Positions 1 through 22,842 of a stretch of 22,842 bases of DNA are shown in pieces. The notes beneath the pieces were generated by a model. The model worked only from the letters and a program-made list of their open reading frames with translations. It ran no database searches and was not told the origin of the DNA. Positions within the stretch are counted from its first letter, which is position 1. Each line of letters opens with the position of its first letter. The position numbers and the translations under genes are program-made. Source of the stretch: a virus; the IMG/VR virus record IMGVR_UViG_3300022221_000028, positions 1-22,842 of that record, one strand, 5' to 3'.

Positions 1-965
1 ATCGTATCGGTATCTGATGCTTGTCCAACATCAACGCCATCTTCATTAACGTCCGATGAAGATTTTTTGAAATAACTTTCTTTCAAAGTTTTAAGTTCAG
101 TTTTGAATTGATCTTCATCTACATATTTCACAGATTCAGCAAGACCTTTAAATTTTTCCTTTTGAGATTCTGCAAGACCTTCAGATGCATCACTAATTAA
201 ACTTTCTTTAGTTGATTCCACAATTTTTGATGTCAATTCAACCGATTTATTAATTTCTTCATCCAGTTGTGATTGAAGATCATCGACGCGTTCTGCAAGA
301 CCTTCAACAACGTCATAACGTTCTTCCGGAATATGAACATAATGATCTTCAAATAGACCTTTTAAACCTTCCAGAAATTCTTCATTCATTTCAGATTTAA
401 TGCCTTGATCAATTGCCAGTTCATTTTCCTTAACCCATTCAGCAACAACGTAATCCAGATATTTATCAATATTTTCATTGATTTCTGTAGTTGCTTCTTC
501 GAGTTTTGCTTCATAAACTGTGTCGTATTGTTCTTTAATACCATCCAGCTTTTCTTTAACTTTTGTTGTTACAGCCGCTTCGAAAATAGTTTTCGCTTTA
601 TTTTGGAAGTCTTCAGATAGTGTTTCACCTTCAAACAATGCAGAAACGTCTTCCGAAACATCAACGGTATAATCAATTTCGATGTCCTTTACAGATTCAT
701 TTTTGTCGTCACCATCGTCATCGTCATCGTCATCTTCACCATCTTCTTTTTCAGAATCGGCTTTTCCGGCATCGTCATCGTCATCTTTCTTTTCAGCTTC
801 AACCATTAATTGAGCTTCTTCTTCTGTAACGATTCCGACAAGTTTGCCATCGTCAAATAATTCTTCGGCTTCATTGATAGTTAATTCGTGATCGCAAGAT
901 TCGCAAACATGCTTGTCCTCAATTAACGACATAACTGTTTCACATTCATTGCATTTATATTGCAT
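1..965 (-). CDS. 22: Prohead core scaffolding protein, gp22-like (3' end cut by window edge)
   Basis: Minus-strand frame open from ATG at 965 to the window edge (321 codons, no stop). The start follows a good GAGGAA ribosome site and a late promoter. Residues about 95 to 300 match T4 gp22, the scaffold that fills the prohead core and is later degraded by gp21. Shared features are a helical region with YLDYVVAEW and NELAIDQGIKSE, the segment GLFEDHYVHIPEERYDVV, and a late AESQKEKFKGL motif. Before this, residues 1-28 hold a zinc-ribbon-like pattern (C5-x2-C8-x12-C21-x2-C24), and residues about 59-90 form an Asp/Glu-rich linker with two poly-Asp runs. As I recall it, T4 gp22 has neither part. 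The major capsid gene 23 would be expected just beyond the left edge. Family assignment is strong; the role of the N-terminal addition is unknown. Confidence 0.9.
   Translation of the reverse strand, partial: MQYKCNECETVMSLIEDKHVCESCDHELTINEAEELFDDGKLVGIVTEEEAQLMVEAEKKDDDDDAGKADSEKEDGEDDDDDDDGDDKNESVKDIEIDYTVDVSEDVSALFEGETLSEDFQNKAKTIFEAAVTTKVKEKLDGIKEQYDTVYEAKLEEATTEINENIDKYLDYVVAEWVKENELAIDQGIKSEMNEEFLEGLKGLFEDHYVHIPEERYDVVEGLAERVDDLQSQLDEEINKSVELTSKIVESTKESLISDASEGLAESQKEKFKGLAESVKYVDEDQFKTELKTLKESYFKKSSSDVNEDGVDVGQASDTDT
713..785. repeat. Hexamer microsatellites encoding the poly-Asp linker of gp22
   Basis: Two tracts of CATCGT repeats, about 3.7 units at 713-734 and 2.7 units at 770-785, encode runs of aspartate on the minus strand. 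Copy-number slippage would change linker length in frame (two residues per unit). Confidence 0.6.
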
Positions 966-1047: not shown

Positions 1048-1326
1048 TTACTTATTATACAATTTAATTTTTTTCATTATTTCTTGAAAATCTGAACGGT
1101 TTTTAAATGATCCATCATTAATTTCATCAATATCAATGAATTTAAATTCGCCAACTTGAATCGATTTATTACGTCCGTGGAGTTTTGTTGTGTAGTATAG
1201 GCGTGAATTTCCATTACCATCTCTACCCTTTCCTGTAATTAAAATATTATCACCGACAGATAAACCACCATTTTTCGCCTTTTTCATTTTGACGCCTTCT
1301 GTGATAAATTCTTTATAAGTTTTCAT
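1048..1326 (-). CDS. Putative capsid-targeted internal protein (CTS leader), 92 aa
   Basis: The protein begins MKTYKEFITE-G, almost the capsid-targeting sequence of T4 internal proteins IPI, IPII and IPIII (MKTYQEFIAE-A), which the gp21 protease cuts after the Glu of an (I/L)-x-E site. Here I-T-E gives predicted cleavage after residue 10. The mature part is small, basic and Gly-rich at first, with no family I recognise. ATG at 1326 has an AAGGG site upstream and lies two bases after the gene 21 stop, between protease and scaffold genes, as expected for a prohead core component. What the mature protein does is unknown; packaging is inferred from the leader and position. Confidence 0.8.
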   Translation of the reverse strand: MKTYKEFITEGVKMKKAKNGGLSVGDNILITGKGRDGNGNSRLYYTTKLHGRNKSIQVGEFKFIDIDEINDGSFKNRSDFQEIMKKIKLYNK

Positions 1327-1328
1327 TA

Positions 1329-2213
1329 TTATATTTTCCCTTCGTAACCGATAGCTACATCGCCTTGGATTAATTCAGCATCATCCGCATATTTTTTGTT
1401 GACAATAACGATTGTCTTACCTTTATGTTTAATGCGAAAATGTGGTACTGGAGAAAATACAAAATCAATATCCTTTTTAGTGAATATAGATTCTAATGGT
1501 TTTCTCATATCAACAATGTTCTTACCCGATACGGTAGATGCAATTTTGCTTATTGTTGGATCGACACTACCTTCGAATATATTCTGGAATTGATTTAGAA
1601 ATTCAGCTTCGCCTATATTCTTAATAACCTGAATCTTACGTGCTTGTTTGTTGATTTGTTTTTTCATCCCTTCAAGGTGTTTTTCGACTAATATGCCGTT
1701 ATCCCACACCCATTCAGCACCTTCCATGATTCCATTAACAAATGCCGATGGAGCCGATGGATCAGCCACAACATCCACACATTTAATTTTAAAATCTGAC
1801 TGCACGACACCTTCATGCACCGTACCTAGTCCACGAGTAGACACACCCATCGACACATTGTCTTCCAATAGTCCACGAACAACATTACCCATTGGAGTAT
1901 TTAAAACTTTGGCTTTGCCGTACCAGTCATTACCCTGTTCCACTAGAGATGTTATTAAGTGACTTGCACGCTCTGGATTGACTACTGGTGAAGGAGGATG
2001 ATTTAATTCTCCCAATGCTCGACGCGTATCAACATATTCTTTAATATATTGTTCCATCTGCGAAGACAAAACTTTTTTTGGATATACGCGTTTGTTACGA
2101 TTACGAACTTCCGATTGCGCAAAAATACCCTCAATGAAATATTTCTTTTTTCCGCCAACTTCTTCGACAATCGCCTTTGTTGTTTCGGTTAATGTTTCTG
2201 TTATTAATAGCAT
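1329..2213 (-). CDS. 21: Prohead core protease, gp21-like, with C-terminal extension
   Basis: This is the serine protease that matures the prohead by cutting scaffold, core and capsid proteins at (I/L)-x-E sites. Visible family features are an N-terminal YFIEGIFAQSEVRNRNKRVYP segment split around residues 25-45, GELNHP with candidate catalytic His72, and MGVSTRG with candidate nucleophile Ser125, matching His85 and Ser140 of T4 gp21. The N-terminus MLLITE-T contains its own I-T-E site, consistent with self-processing. It is 294 residues against about 212 in T4; residues from about 205 form an extra domain with a beta-rich segment around FRIKHKGKTIVIVNKKYADD. ATG at 2213 has an AAGGAA ribosome site. 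The family call is secure; the extra domain is not identified. Confidence 0.92.
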   Translation of the reverse strand: MLLITETLTETTKAIVEEVGGKKKYFIEGIFAQSEVRNRNKRVYPKKVLSSQMEQYIKEYVDTRRALGELNHPPSPVVNPERASHLITSLVEQGNDWYGKAKVLNTPMGNVVRGLLEDNVSMGVSTRGLGTVHEGVVQSDFKIKCVDVVADPSAPSAFVNGIMEGAEWVWDNGILVEKHLEGMKKQINKQARKIQVIKNIGEAEFLNQFQNIFEGSVDPTISKIASTVSGKNIVDMRKPLESIFTKKDIDFVFSPVPHFRIKHKGKTIVIVNKKYADDAELIQGDVAIGYEGKI

Positions 2214-2226
2214 TTGTTATTATTCC

Positions 2227-2529
2227 TTATGCTTTATAGTTTATTAATTTATCGTATATTGTACCGGCGTGGGTTTTCCCTAATGTGGTTAACGCGCCTC
2301 GTGCATTGATATATTTTTTACCTATCAAATTCTGTTTAGCTGCATCCCATTGATCAGATGAAATTCCGGTATCCTTATTCGCTTCATGGAAACGGTAATT
2401 TGAAATTCCCGCATAACTGGATTTTAATCCCCTAGTCGCAATCATCACGATTTTTTCGTGATCTGAAAGTGCTTTGAATCCATCAGAAGTTGTTGAAGCT
2501 TCGATGATAAATTCCTTGTAAGTTTTCAT
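2227..2529 (-). CDS. Putative capsid-targeted protein with winged-helix-like body, 100 aa
   Basis: It begins MKTYKEFIIE-A, a near-perfect T4 capsid-targeting leader with predicted gp21 cleavage after residue 10 (I-I-E then A). The mature part has a layout I associate with small winged-helix proteins: helix (SDHEKIVMIATRGL), a GISSDQWDAAKQNLI recognition-like helix, then a wing-like KYINARGALTTLGK. This suggests a DNA-binding protein packaged in the head, but the fold is inferred by eye. The ATG at 2529 overlaps the stop of the upstream gene (ATGA), so translation is probably coupled. Confidence 0.75.
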   Translation of the reverse strand: MKTYKEFIIEASTTSDGFKALSDHEKIVMIATRGLKSSYAGISNYRFHEANKDTGISSDQWDAAKQNLIGKKYINARGALTTLGKTHAGTIYDKLINYKA

Positions 2530-2849
2530 GATGTTTTTAACCCTAGTAATGAACCACCCATATCACCTTGTGCTACGGATACTTTTCCATTTTTTCTATA
2601 TAAGAAATATTTCGCGGTTTTCGCTGCACCTTCTGGCGTTAATGAAATCTTCTCAGAGTTGTATTTTTTACTTACAGATTTCCTACCAACGATAAATGTT
2701 CTCCATTCACCTTTTCGCGAAGACATTACGAATTGCGCCCACATGTCAACCTTTTGTTTTGACTTTAATGAATCAAAAATTTTGTTGAAGTCATCCTGTG
2801 ACATACTAGGTACAGATTCATTCAAAACGAATTCGCGATAAGTTTTCAT
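2526..2849 (-). CDS. Putative capsid-targeted internal protein (CTS leader), 107 aa
   Basis: It begins MKTYREFVLNE-S, another variant of the T4 capsid-targeting leader, with L-N-E as the likely gp21 cleavage site after residue 11. The mature body is basic, with FIVGRKSVSKKYNSEKISL followed by a C-terminal VSVAQGDMGGSLLGL; I do not recognise a function. ATG at 2849 immediately follows the TAA of the upstream gene, with an AAGG-type site. It sits between the portal and protease genes with other leader-bearing genes, supporting a prohead core or cargo role. Confidence 0.75.
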   Translation of the reverse strand: MKTYREFVLNESVPSMSQDDFNKIFDSLKSKQKVDMWAQFVMSSRKGEWRTFIVGRKSVSKKYNSEKISLTPEGAAKTAKYFLYRKNGKVSVAQGDMGGSLLGLKTS

Positions 2850-3179
2850 TTATAAACCTTGACCTTTACGCTTCTTCAATGCTTTATTACGCAATTTAGT
2901 CGTTTTACGCGCAGCACCTGCACCTTTGGCTTTTTTAGTTTTCGATGCTTTACGATGTGCAATCTTAATTGCTAATTTTTCGGATGCAGCTTGAACGACA
3001 CATTTTGTACCATCCCATTTCTTGCCGGGTCCACAAACAACCTTCTTACGCCTTGCACCTTTGGCATTAACTTTCACTACCAGTTTGCGTTCCGTGATGA
3101 CATCAGATGCCTTCTGCTTTAAAATATTCTTAATATCTTCTTTCAGTTGAGATGGACTTTTAAAATTGAATGTTTTCAC
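2850..3179 (-). CDS. Basic prohead core / internal protein, 109 aa, GTG start
   Basis: Very basic protein: the C-terminal half is rich in Lys, Arg and Ala (AHRKASKTKKAKGAGAARK), which would suit DNA binding or charge neutralisation inside the head. A short CGPGKKWDGTKC loop holds two cysteines near residues 49-60. The N-terminus MKTFNF is leader-like, and SDVITE-R at about residues 25-31 offers an I-T-E cleavage site, so the first 30 residues may be a propeptide. Start is GTG at 3179 with AAAGG upstream, overlapping the previous gene by 20 bases. Position fits the T4 gene 67/68 region, but I see no clear match to either protein. Confidence 0.7.
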   Translation of the reverse strand: MKTFNFKSPSQLKEDIKNILKQKASDVITERKLVVKVNAKGARRKKVVCGPGKKWDGTKCVVQAASEKLAIKIAHRKASKTKKAKGAGAARKTTKLRNKALKKRKGQGL

Positions 3180-3570
3180 TCATGTACCTTTTTATTTTTG
3201 CTTTTTGACATAGTTTCTTAAATTCATCAAAATTCGTATTGTTGAATATCTGAATTGTACTAAGAATGTCTTCTAACGATAATGTTCCCAAATACGTGAT
3301 CAATTTAGAAGCATCATTCTCGGTTATTAAAATTGTTCTATCAGTAAATTCATATTCTGCTGAAATATTTATATTTTTAAGAAAGTCGTAAAATTGCTTA
3401 TGCCGCAAATCCTTGGTTTTGACTTGCGCAAATCCCTTTCCTGTTCTAACCACAAATGAGTTATCCATTTCTTGAACGAGGCTAGATACAATACCATCCG
3501 CCTTATCAGGTAGATCGACATCGTATCGTTTTGAGTTTAGGATTTTGACCTTATCTCCCGGCTTGAACAT
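3160..3570 (-). CDS. Hypothetical protein with KOW/SH3-like N-terminus, 136 aa
   Basis: The opening MFKPGDKVKILNSKRYDVD and following FVVRTGKGFAQVKTKDLRH read like a small SH3/KOW-type beta barrel (about residues 1-55). The C-terminal half is helical with no motif I know. ATG at 3570 directly follows the upstream stop and has only a weak ribosome site. It lies in the row of small genes between portal and protease, so a prohead-related role is possible but unproven. A late promoter octamer lies inside it. Confidence 0.6.
   Translation of the reverse strand: MFKPGDKVKILNSKRYDVDLPDKADGIVSSLVQEMDNSFVVRTGKGFAQVKTKDLRHKQFYDFLKNINISAEYEFTDRTILITENDASKLITYLGTLSLEDILSTIQIFNNTNFDEFKKLCQKAKIKRYMSENIQF
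3366..3373 (-). promoter_or_regulatory. Possible internal late promoter before the core-protein/protease group
   Basis: A perfect TATAAATA on the minus strand inside the preceding gene, 186 bases before the GTG of the 2850-3179 gene. It could boost core protein, CTS protein and protease expression. Chance occurrence in AT-rich coding DNA cannot be excluded. Confidence 0.4.
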
Positions 3571-3777
3571 TTATTTCTTATTATCCGGTTTTAATAAATT
3601 CTGCGCCATAGCCTGTTTTTTATATGCTAATGCCGCTCCAACTTTATTGAACAATGATGTTGATATAAATTCTTTAAAACCAGCTACACTGAAATTTTCA
3701 GATTCTGATAACTTTTTGATTTCATCTTTTTTCATTTTCTGTTTTTTCTTACCTTTGACTGTGAATATATTTTTCAT
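3571..3777 (-). CDS. Small basic protein, possible gp67-like prohead core protein, 68 aa
   Basis: I place the start at ATG 3777, which overlaps the upstream stop (ATGA); ATG at 3783 is an alternative. The N-terminus is very Lys-rich. The C-terminus, FISTSLFNKVGAALAYKKQAM followed by AQNLL, resembles the helical end of T4 gp67-type core proteins (helix with a KK-x-A-x-(A/N)-x-L pattern), and the gene lies where T4 has 67 and 68. This is a weak similarity by eye. Overlaps suggest translational coupling with both neighbours. Confidence 0.5.
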   Translation of the reverse strand: MKNIFTVKGKKKQKMKKDEIKKLSESENFSVAGFKEFISTSLFNKVGAALAYKKQAMAQNLLKPDNKK

Positions 3778-4091
3778 TCCCATGGACCCCAATGTTCATA
3801 TTTGTTGAGCATTTTTCTGGTTTCTTTTGACGAATAACGTTTCTGTTTTTTGTGGTCTATCTTACCTATCGAATAATACAATTCTTTTGGTACAACCAAT
3901 TTTCGATCATTAGAATAATCCAAAACATTACCTTTTTTGTCTTCCACCCATGCATGACCATATACGACCCCTTCCAATTTCCCTTGACCAGTAACAAATC
4001 CATGTATTAGTGTTAAGGATATCTTCTCTCCTAGAAAATCTGATTCTATAATGAGTCGAGCCGCTGCTTCGTAACAATCACCCTGTGGCAT
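3774..4091 (-). CDS. Small transglutaminase/papain-like protein, 105 aa
   Basis: A compact protein with an arrangement typical of the transglutaminase-like (papain-fold) superfamily: Cys6 at the start of a helix (GDCYEAAARLI), then YGHAWVE with His46, then VLDYS with Asp58. Order and spacing fit a Cys-His-Asp triad, though in a shorter form than most family members. The C-terminus ends in HWGPWE. ATG at 4091 shares bases with the upstream stop (TAATG). It could be a peptidase, a crosslinking enzyme or an inactive relative; no substrate can be deduced. Its place between portal and protease suggests late expression and perhaps a head-related role. Confidence 0.65.
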   Translation of the reverse strand: MPQGDCYEAAARLIIESDFLGEKISLTLIHGFVTGQGKLEGVVYGHAWVEDKKGNVLDYSNDRKLVVPKELYYSIGKIDHKKQKRYSSKETRKMLNKYEHWGPWE

Positions 4092-4288
4092 TATTGCGCA
4101 TCATAATATGTCTTAGAAAGTTCACCGCGATTGGCAATGGCCTTCCCTGATAAATCTTCACCGGCAACTCTCACACCAACATACACTTGAGAACCATCTG
4201 AATTAGTTCGGATACCTAATACACCACCATAAGTCGTTAATGTGTTATCGTATTCCCAATTTGTTCCTGTAATTAAAACCCATGCCAT
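4091..4288 (-). CDS. Hypothetical small protein MAWVLITG..., 65 aa
   Basis: I choose ATG at 4288 (MAWVLITGTNWEYDN), with an AGGTGG site about 8-10 bases upstream, over a GTG at 4300 that would be too close to that site. The sequence looks beta-rich with Gly and aromatic residues and no membrane segment. I know no function. A late-promoter-like AATAAATA (one mismatch) lies at 4308-4315. It is coupled to the next gene through TAATG. Confidence 0.55.
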   Translation of the reverse strand: MAWVLITGTNWEYDNTLTTYGGVLGIRTNSDGSQVYVGVRVAGEDLSGKAIANRGELSKTYYDAQ

Positions 4289-4310
4289 TATTCCATCCAC
4301 CTATCCATAT

Positions 4311-4583
4311 TTATTTGGTTAATACATTCATTTGATTTTGATATCGTTCGAGTAGTGCTGCATCCAATGCAGTTCCTTCGCCACTCTGAATTTTAAATTG
4401 AAGAGAGAAAATTTTATCTTCCAGATCAGATATACGATTAGCATCGATCTTTTTTTCGAGTTGTTTCAATTCACCGGCATGTGCGTACCGATTATCAATA
4501 ACTGCAAAACCGGCATAAGACATTCCCACTATTGTGAATATTCCGATCAATGTTGTAATTTTTGTGTTAAGCGAAAACGGCAT
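4311..4583 (-). CDS. Small membrane-anchored coiled-coil protein, 90 aa
   Basis: A single hydrophobic segment at about residues 10-29 (TTLIGIFTIVGMSYAGFAVI) is followed by a charged helical region, residues about 36-70, likely a coiled coil. The layout is that of a single-pass membrane protein with an exposed coiled coil. The start codon shares bases with the portal stop (TAATG), so it is made along with the portal. Role unknown; it might help place the initiator complex at the membrane, but nothing in the sequence proves that. Confidence 0.6.
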   Translation of the reverse strand: MPFSLNTKITTLIGIFTIVGMSYAGFAVIDNRYAHAGELKQLEKKIDANRISDLEDKIFSLQFKIQSGEGTALDAALLERYQNQMNVLTK

Positions 4584-6217
4584 TACTCTTCATCCTTTTT
4601 TTCAGGTTTTTCCTTTTCTTCAGGTTCTGGCTCTTCCTCTTCCTCTTCAGGTTCTCCTTCTTCGCCACCCATTCCTAATTGAGCCATTGCTACATCATTT
4701 GGATCAAGATCAGCAATTTCACCTGCTTTCTTTTCTTTCTCCATCTGTTTCTTTTCTTCTGCAATTTCAAGTTCGGTTTGATTTAGAATGCGCTTTTGAA
4801 CGAATTGAAGACTGAAGTATTTACCAACATAATTATCAATTTCACCCAATTGTTCTAACTGACCACTGAGTAATTCTGTGTCTTTTAATTTCTCGAAGTG
4901 TAAATCTTGATTGAATCGGAAAGTGATCTTTTCCCTCAATTCTTTCCAGTCTTCCAGCGTAACAATATTCTTTAGTATCAATTGAGTCTTCAATAAATCC
5001 ATAAACATGAAAGCAAAGCGTTTTCTCAACTTGCCTATGAATTTAGCGAATTTAACTTCATCACGACTAATTTCCGCTTGTCTACCAGCATTAAATTGTG
5101 ATTCTTGTTCGAGACGTGATAGTGGTATATGAAGTGCTTTATATAATTTGCGTCTGAAATAATCTAAATCTTCAATGTCACCTAGATTTTGACCGCCGGG
5201 TAATGTCTCAACTTCTGTACCCTTTGAACCTTCTCTTCGTGGTAACCAGATATCTTCCAACATACTCATTTGATGAGATGCATCTTTCACATTACCGGAT
5301 TGAGAATCGTAGACCATTTTATTTTTGTATTTGCTAATGATCGCATTCATATATGCTTCGGCGTTTGTTTTCGGAAGCGTTCCAACATCCACATAGAATA
5401 TTCTTCTTTCTGGTGCACGCGATAAACGATATATGACAATTGAGTCTTCAATTAACGATAGCTGATTCCATGGCTTTACCGCTGAATCAAGAAATGATAA
5501 TATGACACTATTACCTTGTGAGTCTTCATCAATAATTCCCGAATTACAATATGTGATCGATTCCTTGGGAATTTTAATCATTTCCTTTTGTGGACTTTGG
5601 TGGCCAACTACATCAAATCGTGGATTATCATATAGAAAATATTCATCTATACCTGTGATAATTTCGACACCCTTATCATTCGGTTCAGTTTTGTATTCGC
5701 GAACCTTTTTAATGAATCTAGGGTCAATTTGACGCAATTCCTGAATACCATTTTTGGTCTTATTTTCATCAACTATAACGTGATAAAATAATCGCCCATC
5801 AACGTACCACTCACGAAATATTTTGTCACCGTACGCATTGAAATCTAGAAGGCGAAGAATATTTTCAAATTCATCCTGAATTTTATCTTTGAATTTATCT
5901 GAGTATTCAACTTCGTCAAGAACAATTTCAACAGGACTTCCCTGATCCTCAAATGACATGGCTTCATTAACGATTTCATCGATTGAAGTTTCAATCTCTG
6001 AATGTAATGACATCTTACGATATTTTTCGATTAATTCTTTTTCGTTATTGTAACCGAAACCAAAATTGACACCGTATGTGAACGTACCACCGGAATTGAG
6101 CGCACTATCAATTTTGATAGCGGCATCTTGATCTGTCGGATGAACGAACGATTGATTTTTTGCTAAATCTTCGTCATTCTTCCTAGATATTTTAAAACCA
6201 AAAAATTCAACAGCCAT
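4583..6217 (-). CDS. 20: Portal vertex protein, gp20-like
   Basis: This 544-residue protein matches the T4 portal (524 aa), the dodecameric ring at the head vertex through which DNA is pumped. Family segments include RRIFYVDVGTLPKTNAEAYM, KNKMVYDSQSGNVKDASHQM, SMLEDIWLPRREG, EVETLPGGQNLGDIEDLDYF and RDEVKFAKFIGKLRKRF, in the T4 order. The C-terminal 25 or so residues are a Glu/Pro/Lys tail. ATG at 6217 lacks a clear ribosome site. A perfect late promoter lies 30 bases before it. Gene order 19-20-(small genes)-21 matches T4, with more small genes than the two (67, 68) of T4. Confidence 0.95.
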   Translation of the reverse strand: MAVEFFGFKISRKNDEDLAKNQSFVHPTDQDAAIKIDSALNSGGTFTYGVNFGFGYNNEKELIEKYRKMSLHSEIETSIDEIVNEAMSFEDQGSPVEIVLDEVEYSDKFKDKIQDEFENILRLLDFNAYGDKIFREWYVDGRLFYHVIVDENKTKNGIQELRQIDPRFIKKVREYKTEPNDKGVEIITGIDEYFLYDNPRFDVVGHQSPQKEMIKIPKESITYCNSGIIDEDSQGNSVILSFLDSAVKPWNQLSLIEDSIVIYRLSRAPERRIFYVDVGTLPKTNAEAYMNAIISKYKNKMVYDSQSGNVKDASHQMSMLEDIWLPRREGSKGTEVETLPGGQNLGDIEDLDYFRRKLYKALHIPLSRLEQESQFNAGRQAEISRDEVKFAKFIGKLRKRFAFMFMDLLKTQLILKNIVTLEDWKELREKITFRFNQDLHFEKLKDTELLSGQLEQLGEIDNYVGKYFSLQFVQKRILNQTELEIAEEKKQMEKEKKAGEIADLDPNDVAMAQLGMGGEEGEPEEEEEEPEPEEKEKPEKKDEE

Positions 6218-6247
6218 TTATTTATTATTGTTTATATAAGTATTTAA

Positions 6248-6255
6248 TATTTATA
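6248..6255 (-). promoter_or_regulatory. T4-type late promoter for gene 20
   Basis: Perfect TATAAATA on the minus strand, 30 bases before the gene 20 ATG, in an intergenic region after the gene 19 hairpin. A one-mismatch TATAAACA at 6229-6236 is closer to the start. Confidence 0.7.
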
Positions 6256-6327
6256 CATAAAGAAATATTGCACAATTGGGATTAATGCATTAATATTAAT
6301 AAATAATGTGTTCGATCTGAAATGAAA

Positions 6328-6357
6328 TGTGCGCCTCTTTTAATGTTGAGGCGCACA
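6328..6357 (-). terminator. Hairpin terminator after gene 19
   Basis: A perfect 10-bp GC-rich stem (TGTGCGCCTC with GAGGCGCACA) around a 10-base loop, ten bases after the gene 19 stop. It is the strongest hairpin I found in the window. The downstream minus-strand sequence is only moderately T-rich, so it may act as a terminator or a 3'-end stabiliser. It separates gene 19 from the gene 20 late promoter. Confidence 0.7.
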
Positions 6358-6366
6358 ATAGTGTGA

Positions 6367-6855
6367 TTAAACTCGTGTCCAATAATCGTATGCGATGGTT
6401 ACCGTGAATTCGGAAACCGTATCATTTGACTCGAATGACACTTCCACCGGAGATACTTCAGTAGGAAATGCGCCTACTAATTGATATTCCGCGATGATTT
6501 TGTTATCGACACCTAATTGCATGATTTGTCCATCTTCTTTTGATGCTTCGACCGATGGAGAACCAATATTTGCAATTTCGTGGTTAATACGCTGCATCCA
6601 GTCATCGAAGTAATTCTTGAGATTGAAGGTATCATCATTCATGATTGTGATGGTCCATTCAGGATAGATTCGATCACCGGGAACTTTTATCTTACGTCCC
6701 ATGTACGGAACTTCAATAACACCCAATGTTGAAGGTGGAAGCTGTGCAGCTTTACACATAAATTCCAGTTGTCGATCCGCACCGAAACCTTGAACTTTGA
6801 ATAAAGTCGGTTTCGCAAGGTGAGTAAAACTACCTTTAAAATCTGTTATGTTCAA
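6367..6855 (-). CDS. 19: Tail tube protein, gp19-like (TTG start)
   Basis: 162 residues, the size of T4 gp19 (163 aa), the subunit of the inner tail tube. Matching features are KPTLFKVQGFG near the start, CKAAQLPPSTLGVIEVPYMG then RKIKVPGDRIYPEWTITIMND, and a C-terminal FTVTIAYDYW. The only start that keeps the conserved N-terminus is TTG at 6855; no in-frame ATG lies upstream and the next Met is near residue 34. A GGGAGT ribosome site sits at suitable distance. The gene follows the sheath gene closely and ends just before a strong hairpin. Confidence 0.93.
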   Translation of the reverse strand: MNITDFKGSFTHLAKPTLFKVQGFGADRQLEFMCKAAQLPPSTLGVIEVPYMGRKIKVPGDRIYPEWTITIMNDDTFNLKNYFDDWMQRINHEIANIGSPSVEASKEDGQIMQLGVDNKIIAEYQLVGAFPTEVSPVEVSFESNDTVSEFTVTIAYDYWTRV

Positions 6856-6871
6856 TTTATTTTACTCCCTA

Positions 6872-8443
6872 TTATACTAAGATTTCTTCGAACGTTACGC
6901 CAGCATTCACAGCAACAAAGTTCAAGTAAATGAAATTAATAGCTCTGGCTGGTTTGATGTAAATATCCGAAACAAATTCGTTATTCGACAATACCTGATC
7001 GGTGTTATTCGTTCTATCTGCAATAACTTTGAAATCGTATATTCCACGTCTCCCTTGAATATCACGCAGATACGGCTCAACCATGTTGCGGAACAAGTTG
7101 CGTGTGAAATCATCATTGATTTCGAACAATTGTTGATTTGCTGCTGTTGCTATTGCTTTTTCGATAACAATAAACAAACGTCTCACATTGATTCGATCAA
7201 ATGCAGATGCTGTAGTTGCTAACGTCTTGTCACCATAAAGTATTGTTCCTTTGCCGGGGAATGATGCAATTGGATTAATATTTTTCTGATATAAAGCATC
7301 TCGATTTGCTTGAGAAGATGCATATGCAGATTTAACAACATTTTTGATTTGACCACGATTGAATCCCGCTGGTGAATACCATGGCTCTGCAATCTGATCT
7401 GTGTATGCCATTAATCCAGCGACATCACCTGTATAATTCACCCATCCGTAAATATCATTATATTTGTCATATTGATATTTGTAATTGCTAACTGCAATTC
7501 CATATGTAGATAGATTGGATAGAGTTGTGATGAAAGTAATTTCATCCGCGACCGCTGTAGCAGAACCGACAGATGTTGCACTATCTGCTGATACTAAAGC
7601 CAAAACATCTCTGCGTGTTTTCGCGATATTTAAAATATTATCGACAACGGTTGACTGTGATGTATAACCGCCACCATGAAATAAGAAATTGATATCAATC
7701 TCATCACCATTCGCGAATAAATCCTGTGCAGTTAATATTTCAGCATCGGTAGGTGAATCATCGACACCATTCGCTAGAGTGAATGTATTCGCACCCGCTG
7801 CAATTGCTGTGTCAATATCGATCCAGACATATTTTGATTGATCCGCGATTACGGTTTCGATGAAATTTGTTTTACCAAAGCCATCAAGTGATCCCGGCGT
7901 TTCATCGGCTAAGAAAGTTTCTACAATTTTACCGTCATATAAAACGACAATTGCTAATTCAGTTCCAGTCGGTGCGTAGTTGAAATTACTTTCATATGTC
8001 CATCCCGTAAATGCAGTTGAATCACATGTGTGAACAACTATTTTATTCCCGAATGTGCCGGGATATTTAGCAAAGAATGTGTGACCACCCGCAAATGTGC
8101 TTGCTGCCTGTATGTCGAAATCATCACGATTTTTGATTAAGTGGAAGGTAACTGCACCATCACTCGCATTTTTAGCTGCTGCACCAACAGCACGAGAGAT
8201 ATATAACGCATTTGAGTAAGAAAGAAAATTCTTACATACCATCCAATCTTCCCAATTCATTGCGGCATTCGGAGTTGAAAACTTTTCAACTAATTCGTTT
8301 TCGCTAGAAATAAGTATGCGTTCTCCGACTGGACCCCACATAAACTTACCAGCAAAGCCACCAATGGAAGTGGAAACCGCTGGTATTGTTGCAGTTAGAT
8401 CAGTTTCTGTAACTAATACTGAAGGTGATACTGAGAATCCCAT
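6872..8443 (-). CDS. 18: Contractile tail sheath protein, gp18-like
   Basis: 523-residue sheath subunit that surrounds the tube and contracts on infection. The N-terminus SVSPSVLVTETDLTATIPAV with SIGGFAGKFMWGPVGE is typical of T4 gp18, as are the C-terminal RRLFIVIEKAI, NDDFTRNLFRNMVEPYLRDI, YDFKVIADRTNNT and ARAINFIYLNFVAV segments. It is shorter than T4 gp18 (659 aa), probably with fewer or smaller surface-exposed middle domains. ATG at 8443 has an AGGGA site. A late promoter lies 43 bases upstream. Confidence 0.95.
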   Translation of the reverse strand: MGFSVSPSVLVTETDLTATIPAVSTSIGGFAGKFMWGPVGERILISSENELVEKFSTPNAAMNWEDWMVCKNFLSYSNALYISRAVGAAAKNASDGAVTFHLIKNRDDFDIQAASTFAGGHTFFAKYPGTFGNKIVVHTCDSTAFTGWTYESNFNYAPTGTELAIVVLYDGKIVETFLADETPGSLDGFGKTNFIETVIADQSKYVWIDIDTAIAAGANTFTLANGVDDSPTDAEILTAQDLFANGDEIDINFLFHGGGYTSQSTVVDNILNIAKTRRDVLALVSADSATSVGSATAVADEITFITTLSNLSTYGIAVSNYKYQYDKYNDIYGWVNYTGDVAGLMAYTDQIAEPWYSPAGFNRGQIKNVVKSAYASSQANRDALYQKNINPIASFPGKGTILYGDKTLATTASAFDRINVRRLFIVIEKAIATAANQQLFEINDDFTRNLFRNMVEPYLRDIQGRRGIYDFKVIADRTNNTDQVLSNNEFVSDIYIKPARAINFIYLNFVAVNAGVTFEEILV

Positions 8444-19295: not shown

Positions 19296-19790
19296 TTAAA
19301 ATAATTGTTGATTTCGGTTATCAGCTAATTTTTCGATTCTCTTATATAATTTGGAAAGATCAGTATGAATTTTCTGAAGACCTTTAACATTAACTTTATC
19401 CGAATTGACTTTCGAAAAACTAGCATTTACACTCGCGATGTCATCTAGTTGAATTCTGATGTCATGCATCACCTGCTTTAGTTCTTCTTTTTTTCGTGGA
19501 TCATTCGTTTTTATTTGAGGCGCTTTTGCAGCTTCATCAATAGTTGATTCTACTAAATCAATACTTTTAATAAATGGACCAGCCGCAGCCCAGTCATCCT
19601 TTTTAACACCGAGTTTCATCACAGCTTTTTTTGCCGCTTCCGATGTGTTTCGTGCAACTATTTCTAAATGTTGATTCTGGAATTGAATTTTATTGAAAGA
19701 ACCTTTCTTAAAGGTTACTTTCCATTTCTTAAACCCTTCATCCAATTGTTTAGCATCATCCAACTTTCGATATTCTTTCAATGATTTCAT
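19296..19790 (-). CDS. Putative capsid-targeted protein inserted between genes 13 and 14, 164 aa
   Basis: The N-terminus MKSLKEYRKLDDAKQLDE-G is a longer variant of the capsid-targeting leader, with L-D-E as a candidate gp21 cleavage site after residue 18. The mature part starts with a basic, strand-rich segment (FKKWKVTFKKGSFNKIQFQN) and continues with helices that may form a coiled coil (residues 100-160). ATG 19790 has a strong AAGGAG site. T4 has no gene between 13 and 14, so this is an insertion. Function unknown; packaging is inferred from the leader alone. Confidence 0.65.
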   Translation of the reverse strand: MKSLKEYRKLDDAKQLDEGFKKWKVTFKKGSFNKIQFQNQHLEIVARNTSEAAKKAVMKLGVKKDDWAAAGPFIKSIDLVESTIDEAAKAPQIKTNDPRKKEELKQVMHDIRIQLDDIASVNASFSKVNSDKVNVKGLQKIHTDLSKLYKRIEKLADNRNQQLF

Positions 19791-20549: not shown

Positions 20550-20780
20550 TTAATCCAGCGGAACGAGTTTTCCACCCATACCTTTAATTTGTTTCTTGAA
20601 TGCTGTTAACTGTGATGATGATAATTCTGCTAAATCCATTAATTCTGAATTACCATTGGCCAATACCATAACCGCTGGAGTTTTCATTTTTGATCTTTCC
20701 TTGGCAAATTTTTGTTTCAATTTGGATACTGAATTGGCATCTTCATTGATACGTTTCATCAATTCTGAGAATGATTTCAT
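20550..20780 (-). CDS. Putative capsid-targeted small protein upstream of gene 13, 76 aa
   Basis: It begins MKSFSELMKRINE-DANS, a weaker capsid-targeting-like leader with I-N-E as the candidate gp21 site after residue 13. The rest is basic and helical. ATG 20780 has an AGGTAA site. It sits just upstream of gene 13 in the late transcript. Function unknown. Confidence 0.6.
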   Translation of the reverse strand: MKSFSELMKRINEDANSVSKLKQKFAKERSKMKTPAVMVLANGNSELMDLAELSSSQLTAFKKQIKGMGGKLVPLD

Positions 20781-22106: not shown

Positions 22107-22316
22107 TTACCCGAAAGATATATTTATTGTATTTTCTATGGTTTCAAACGAGAAGTTGAGTGAACTTTCTGGTATAATGAACGATGGATCAACGTCTGAA
22201 AATATATAAGAGTCTCCATTTTCATCATGCATGGAGACGTAATATTCATTGTCAAGATCATATCGAAATCGTATAAACCCCTCTTCCTCTTTAGGTTTAA
22301 CTTTATCGTGCGCCAT
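22107..22316 (-). CDS. Hypothetical acidic protein, 69 aa
   Basis: Acidic, beta-rich protein (FIRFRYDLDNEYYVSMHDEN) with no recognised family. Start overlaps the upstream stop (TAATG), so it is translated with the spanin-like genes. Confidence 0.6.
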   Translation of the reverse strand: MAHDKVKPKEEEGFIRFRYDLDNEYYVSMHDENGDSYIFSDVDPSFIIPESSLNFSFETIENTINISFG

Positions 22317-22591
22317 TATTTACCGCTTATTCTTTCGATAATCTTTTCAAGTTTTTTGCTGTAATCCTTTAATTGGATAATCGTTATTGGATACGCACGA
22401 AAAACTTCTTTCATATTCGTTACATCGATGTTATTCAATTCCAATTCTGGTCGAATAAATTCATCCACGACTGGACATTCTTTAACGGGAATTTTCACTT
22501 CTTGCACCTTAACACGATATCTGATGACCTCCTTTGTGCCACACCCTGATAATGCAATCACAACAATAAATGATATTAAAAATTTCACCAT
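22316..22591 (-). CDS. Putative outer-membrane spanin (Rz1-like lipoprotein), 91 aa
   Basis: The N-terminus has a lipoprotein signal with lipobox LSGC (Cys17), predicting acylation and anchoring in the outer membrane. The remainder, with KECPVVDEFIRPELEL and a C-terminal helix (ITIIQLKDYSKKLEKIIERI), fits a small periplasmic lipoprotein. It overlaps the end of the upstream coiled-coil gene by seven bases, the usual Rz/Rz1 layout. Together they would fuse inner and outer membranes at lysis. The call rests on lipobox, size and arrangement. Confidence 0.65.
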   Translation of the reverse strand: MVKFLISFIVVIALSGCGTKEVIRYRVKVQEVKIPVKECPVVDEFIRPELELNNIDVTNMKEVFRAYPITIIQLKDYSKKLEKIIERISGK

Positions 22592-22842
22592 GACTTTAGC
22601 TCCGGTACATAATCCTTTAGTAACTGTAAACCATCATCACATGTAGTGAATACCTTTTCCTTGATGACTTTAATTTTCTCGACCGTCTCAATTTCGGGAG
22701 GTCGTTTCATCAAATCATCAATTTCAATTTGTTTTAATTTCAATATCGTGTTCTGTTTATCAATCTCATCATTTCTAGCATTGATAGAATCAGTTAATTC
22801 TTGTTTGTCTGTAATCAATAGAGCATTTTCGACATTAGCATC
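22585..22842 (-). CDS. Putative inner-membrane spanin (Rz-like), 5' end cut by window edge
   Basis: The frame is open from the right edge to the TGA at 22585 (85 residues visible); the start and expected N-terminal membrane anchor lie outside. The visible part is a charged helix (about residues 1-50), probably a coiled coil, then a PPEIETVEKIKVIKEKV segment and a C-terminal LLKDYVPELKSW. With the overlapping lipoprotein gene downstream, this fits an i-spanin. Without the N-terminus the call is tentative. Confidence 0.55.
   Translation of the reverse strand, partial: DANVENALLITDKQELTDSINARNDEIDKQNTILKLKQIEIDDLMKRPPEIETVEKIKVIKEKVFTTCDDGLQLLKDYVPELKSW

Follow-up and report, generated by a model that had tools for sequence, protein, structure and literature searches.

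Three small genes around the prohead protease gene of this phage encode, with high probability, internal head proteins of the T4 type. The window, i.e., the whole stretch of 22,842 nucleotides that was analysed, contains the leaders, the cut motifs, the gp21 gene and a head-operon placement with late-promoter consensus. By homology to T4, the leader of about ten residues would dock each protein in the prohead core, and the neighbouring gp21 would cut it off after L/I-X-E. The mature bodies, small and basic at about 9-11 kDa, would then be retained in the head alongside the DNA and would probably exit with it at infection. Packaging of the three products into the head is very likely. We are confident, short of certainty, in the joint reading, in which leader-docked, gp21-cut and DNA-retained proteins of this type carry bodies that are interchangeable cargo modules.

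Leader-bearing genes in the head operon

The following features, in which a slash marks a predicted cut, make up the operon.

1..965, minus strand: gp22-like scaffold protein, extending past the window end
1048..1326, minus strand: predicted CTS (capsid-targeting leader) cargo gene 1, 92 aa; leader MKTYKEFITE/G at 1297-1326, mature body of 82 aa
1329..2213, minus strand: gp21 prohead protease (S77) of 294 aa, extended at its C-terminus; PF03420 Peptidase_S77 1.9e-39, phrog_207 4e-69
1332..1571, minus strand: 80-aa C-terminal extension of gp21, delimited by alignment with five relatives; homologues on other carriers
2227..2529, minus strand: predicted CTS cargo gene 2, 100 aa; leader MKTYKEFIIE/A at 2500-2529, mature body of 90 aa
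2526..2849, minus strand: predicted CTS cargo gene 3, 107 aa; leader MKTYREFVLNE/S at 2817-2849, mature body of 96 aa
2529..2816, minus strand: body-3 module common to mosaic proteins of marine T4-like phages (tblastn, profile search, AlphaFold2)
2850..3179, minus strand: basic protein resembling prohead-core/scaffold proteins, GTG start; from residue 28 on it matches phrog_3503 (head scaffolding, 3.9e-19), similar to scaffolding proteins of Ackermannviridae
3366..3373, minus strand: match to the T4 late-promoter consensus, TATAAATA, lying upstream of the run of scaffold-like, CTS and gp21 genes
4583..6217, minus strand: gp20 portal protein, by nucleotide similarity to annotated portal genes

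Genes 2 and 3 are thus situated between gp20 and gp21, and gene 1 between gp21 and gp22. The preliminary description had reported three genes with near-perfect T4 capsid-targeting leaders and a gp21 protease gene among them; the S77 matches listed above bear out the latter, and the former was confirmed by a pattern search. With up to two mismatches allowed over the whole window, ATGAARACNTAYMRNGARTTY was found only as exact matches at 1306-1326, 2509-2529 and 2829-2849. The reversed pattern, used as a control, had no match in the window, and MKTYxEF was absent from 200 first-order Markov windows, as against the three occurrences observed. The codons of the three leaders differ synonymously (TAT/TAC, AAA/AAG); therefore, the leader is conserved at the protein level.

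In T4, ten residues of the CTS are enough for packaging, mutations at residues 4 and 7 affect targeting and those at 8 and 10 affect processing, while gp21 cleaves after L/I-X-E (PMC9026906). Y4 and F7 are retained in all three leaders of the window, and each leader closes with the gp21 motif, namely ITE at residues 8-10, IIE at 8-10 and, displaced by one residue in gene 3, LNE at 9-11. The earlier suggestion that the leader is a gp21 substrate agrees with this motif and with the S77 protease gene in the same genome. The predicted mature bodies of genes 1, 2 and 3 (9.1, 10.0 and 10.7 kDa; net charge +8, +5 and +10) are small and basic, resembling T4 internal proteins in this respect, and comparison of the bodies with one another revealed no evident similarity, as had been claimed. 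Gene 1 matches phrog_2667, 'internal head protein', through its leader only, and its body had no homologue in phages or viral contigs. For the body of gene 2, no homologue was found in phages, viral contigs or genome contigs; weak winged-helix-like matches were obtained, and its structure model (pLDDT 48) was unusable for fold assignment. With no homologues of either body, what argues for genes 1 and 2 is confined to leader, size, charge and position.

The late-promoter consensus occurs ten times in the window against 3.0 matches expected, nine of the ten being on the minus strand, and these include, besides the one at 3366..3373, those at 1006, 6248 and 8487. The scaffold-like protein at 2850..3179 possesses an N-terminal segment ending in VITE/R. 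Two more candidates were noticed in the neck region by direct reading of the sequence.

19296..19790, minus strand: candidate cargo polyprotein, start MKSLKEY..QLDE/; MKSLKEYRKLDDAKQLDE/GFKK...STIDE/AAKA
20550..20780, minus strand: weak candidate CTS gene, start MKSFSEL..INE/; MKSFSELMKRINE/D; may be a chance match

Homologues of the former were looked for and none was found. Elsewhere in the window, a small protein at 3774-4091 (minus strand; GDCYEAA...HGFV...HAWVE...DYS) looks transglutaminase/NlpC-like by eye (Pfam match 0.31), and two overlapping ORFs (22316-22591 and 22585-22818, minus strand), one lipobox-like (MVKFLISFIVVIALSGCGTKE) and the other, upstream of it, coiled, may form a spanin pair.

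As a positive control, the leader pattern with up to two mismatches recovered ipI, ipII, ipIII and gene 61.1 in T4. Gene 61.1 (NC_000866, 18966-19130) has a CTS-like start, MKTFKEFIKE, and is annotated as hypothetical. A scan of IMG/VR for MKTY[KQ]EF starts yielded at least 123 distinct translations; among the matches listed, 61 non-redundant genes are of at least 50 aa, and the cut motif falls at residues 10-12 in only 36 of these 61, a point against the joint reading given above. Three helicase-like proteins with MKTYQEF starts (L026, L065, L073) do not resemble head cargo and were excluded from the CTS set. Clusters of three to four leader genes are common among the matches listed (L119, L066, L047, L123), examples being four genes in 8.9 kb, four in 4.9 kb and three in 1.3 kb. 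Such clusters in other T4-like phages, together with the four T4 genes recovered above, mean that the three genes of the window are not an enlarged set, contrary to what had been proposed. The set had also been called undescribed, which is true of these particular bodies; the principle of one leader on diverse proteins in T4-like phages has been described already (PMC9026906, PMC3012670). What goes beyond this knowledge is the occurrence of body 3 in mosaic proteins and the mobile extension of gp21, neither of which had been noticed in the preliminary description.

Body 3 and the gp21 extension on other carriers

By tblastn, the body of gene 3 matched a part of long hypothetical proteins in Methylophilales phage Melnitz (H5P1; 1e-9) and phage C48C1 (2e-6). 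The Melnitz mosaic is QZI94974.1, in which the candidate cut site is IEIDE/MKMD. A profile search found 106 relatives, of which 80 loci were retained. The relatives, some of which are 31-38% identical to body 3 and lack the window leader, sit in ORFs of up to about 1000 aa, where gp21-like sites flank the module. Of 54 distinct contexts, 45 have a [VILM]-X-E glutamate immediately preceding the first residue of the module, while the next best offset reaches 13; the strict L/I-X-E occupies this position in 39. Close to the module end, the motif is present in 48 of the 54. These contexts are related sequences rather than independent events, and kinship inflates the counts. The upstream neighbours of the module form 18 dissimilar groups, 16 of which have the border motif, while in the remaining two L-X-E lies a few residues from the border. 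In the window, the predicted CTS cut of gene 3 (LNE/SVPSM) upstream and the stop codon downstream coincide with both borders of the module as it appears in the mosaics. In L127 and L128, a mosaic with the body-3 module is located between gp20 and gp21, which is also where gene 3 lies in the window.

Modelled with AlphaFold2 (mean pLDDT 83 for the whole chain), the gene 3 protein shows disordered first ten residues (pLDDT 44) followed by a folded body, predicted as a helix and a six-strand barrel. Compared with PDB and viral structures, the model had no match at E<=0.001; its best viral structural match was a protein of phage KP15, and among the 203-aa KP15 ORFs listed none carried a CTS-like leader. 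KP15_152 of this cultured Klebsiella phage (NC_014036, 102169-102957) has a FKEFLTE/ leader and DLNE/A and PMDE/A sites, looking multi-module-like. Adjoining body-3 mosaics in L185 (1721-4603, phrog_3041), L169, L171, L190 and L193 are cytidyltransferase-type proteins with an MKTF start and C-terminal strings of modules.

The second recurring element is the gp21 extension, which in the alignment with five relatives begins directly after NIFE/G at the native C-terminus of the latter. Its homologues were found in L241 as a separate gene whose start, MKFKEYLKLDE/, is CTS-like (69% identity in the matched stretch), in the large contig L242 as another gene of its own (55%), and in L243 as the C-terminal half of a protein that resembles gp67 and is encoded between gp20 and gp21 (52%); in L243, the gp67-like assignment relies on PF17634 (0.0048, below the curated cutoff) and phrog_1064 (6e-5). 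L241 also holds a 966-aa portal ORF with an intein-resembling insert (4258-7158), and the idea of a giant-phage S-X-E leader in L242 was dropped, as only two copies occur in the record. The extension is a mobile cargo-like module; together with body 3 it appears to represent interchangeable modules recurring on CTS-like genes, on gp67 and on long mosaic proteins.

The sites at the module borders could also be acidic linkers of virion proteins that are never cut, with the border match produced by linker-mediated recombination. The linkers of the mosaics are generally acidic (EEVELDE), and the kinship noted above inflates the border counts in favour of a cut-site interpretation. However, the stand-alone gene of the window has its predicted CTS cut at the very same border, and the gp21 extension starts immediately after NIFE/G. 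Moreover, in 43 mosaic proteins internal alignments start within three residues of [VILM]-X-E in 43% of cases and end there in 41%, compared with 13% for random positions. We regard the linker explanation as plausible yet doubtful.

A rather improbable alternative is that the three proteins belong, like IPIII and gp67/gp68, to the head-morphogenesis core or scaffold, being needed for the prohead and not injected as cargo. The genes do flank gp21 in the vicinity of gp20 and the scaffold-like gene, a CTS gene next to gp21 is also present, among the matches listed, in L019, L090, L098, L110 and L115, and loss of IPIII disturbs head assembly in T4 (PMC9026906). Against this, bodies 1 and 2 are not kept even in related phages, and body 3 resides inside mosaics mostly remote from gp21, which was near them in only 2 of 54 loci. 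Finally, the origin of the three genes as recent paralogues with bodies diverged past recognition, instead of one leader placed on different bodies, is unlikely, its probability being very low in our estimate: the genes are adjacent and tandem duplication is common in phages, but synonymous differences separate the leader codons even now, body 3 has relatives without this leader, and the predicted secondary structures of the bodies differ (the second model being poor).

Comparison with known systems and virion proteomes

Internal head proteins of the T4 type are the preferred reading, and IPI, IPII and IPIII of T4 (ipI, ipII, ipIII) are the nearest counterparts: three genes with a CTS of about ten residues, a gp21-cut L/I-X-E and unrelated small basic bodies. 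These bodies are, however, unrelated to those of the window, one of which is a module of mosaic proteins, and the T4 genes map apart at 65-66 kb (ipII/ipIII) and 73 kb (ipI), whereas those of the window flank gp21 in the head operon. T4 gp67 and gp68 enter the prohead core, as the proteins of the window would, gp67 being cut by gp21, and gp67 is linked to the window by the fused relative of the gp21 extension in L243; unlike the proteins considered here, both have a scaffold role and are no CTS cargo. The polyvalent proteins that Iyer et al. (2017; PMC5512222) described from phages and conjugative elements are similarly multidomain, mosaic and presumed to be injected with DNA. Their processing, however, is ascribed to metallopeptidase or assemblin-like domains of their own, while the mosaics related to body 3 have at their borders motifs of gp21, a separate protease, and show few Pfam matches and no metallopeptidase. 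Moreover, each polyvalent protein unites several effector domains that can be recognised as such, whereas the genes of the window are single-domain. In giant phages of the SPN3US/phiKZ type a prohead protease also removes propeptides and many proteins are ejected, but the motif is A-X-E and the propeptides are far longer (PMC7411985).

Packaging of leader-bearing proteins could be compared with the virion mass-spectrometry proteome of cyanophage S-CREM2 (PMC10665884). The pattern ^M[KRQN].[FYL]..[FY][VILMF].E matched 6 of 219 proteins: five belong to a set of 28 that were detected and are not in the list of 24 structural proteins, and one is among the 167 undetected (Fisher 2.4e-4), in a comparison that is not blind because its residue classes were fixed after some sequences had been seen. 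The same pattern, applied afterwards and unchanged to S-SCSM1, gave two matches only, one detected (the NMNAT ORF91) and one undetected, which say nothing by themselves. The S-CREM2 virion proteins with a leader include ORF6 (S-AdoMet_lyase, PF23780 2.3e-19) and the cytidylyltransferase ORF154; these and ORF91 share with the window a CTS-like leader, here on virion-detected proteins, and differ in belonging to identified enzyme families, with bodies unrelated to those of the window. In S-CREM1 (OP535465), two leader-like starts (137282 and 138886) were noticed between terS and terL. Matches to S-AdoMet_lyase were also obtained for 5 of the 58 non-redundant leader-bearing proteins among the matches listed. 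The T3 member of this family counters restriction. Its presence among leader proteins is a lead and no evidence on the bodies of the window.

Putative role of the bodies and a possible module pool

The most likely putative role of the bodies is that of a host-directed effector or counter-defence protein. A broader possibility, to which we assign slightly less than an even chance, is a pool of interchangeable head-cargo modules, shared by T4-like phages and bordered by prohead-protease sites. Each module could occur as a gene with its own leader, as part of a polyprotein that is cut inside the prohead, or as a fusion with either a core protein or the protease. In this way several injected proteins would be loaded by a single targeting event.

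If the basic reading alone holds, the locus adds another T4-type internal-protein cluster. Should the L/I-X-E borders prove to be genuine cut sites, many unannotated long proteins of marine T4-like phages would become readable as strings of cargo modules, and the mosaic proteins could be divided in silico and their modules examined singly. It would further account for the presence in virions of enzymes like the SAM-lyase-family protein or the cytidylyltransferase, and would provide a simple sequence rule for spotting injected host-directed proteins.
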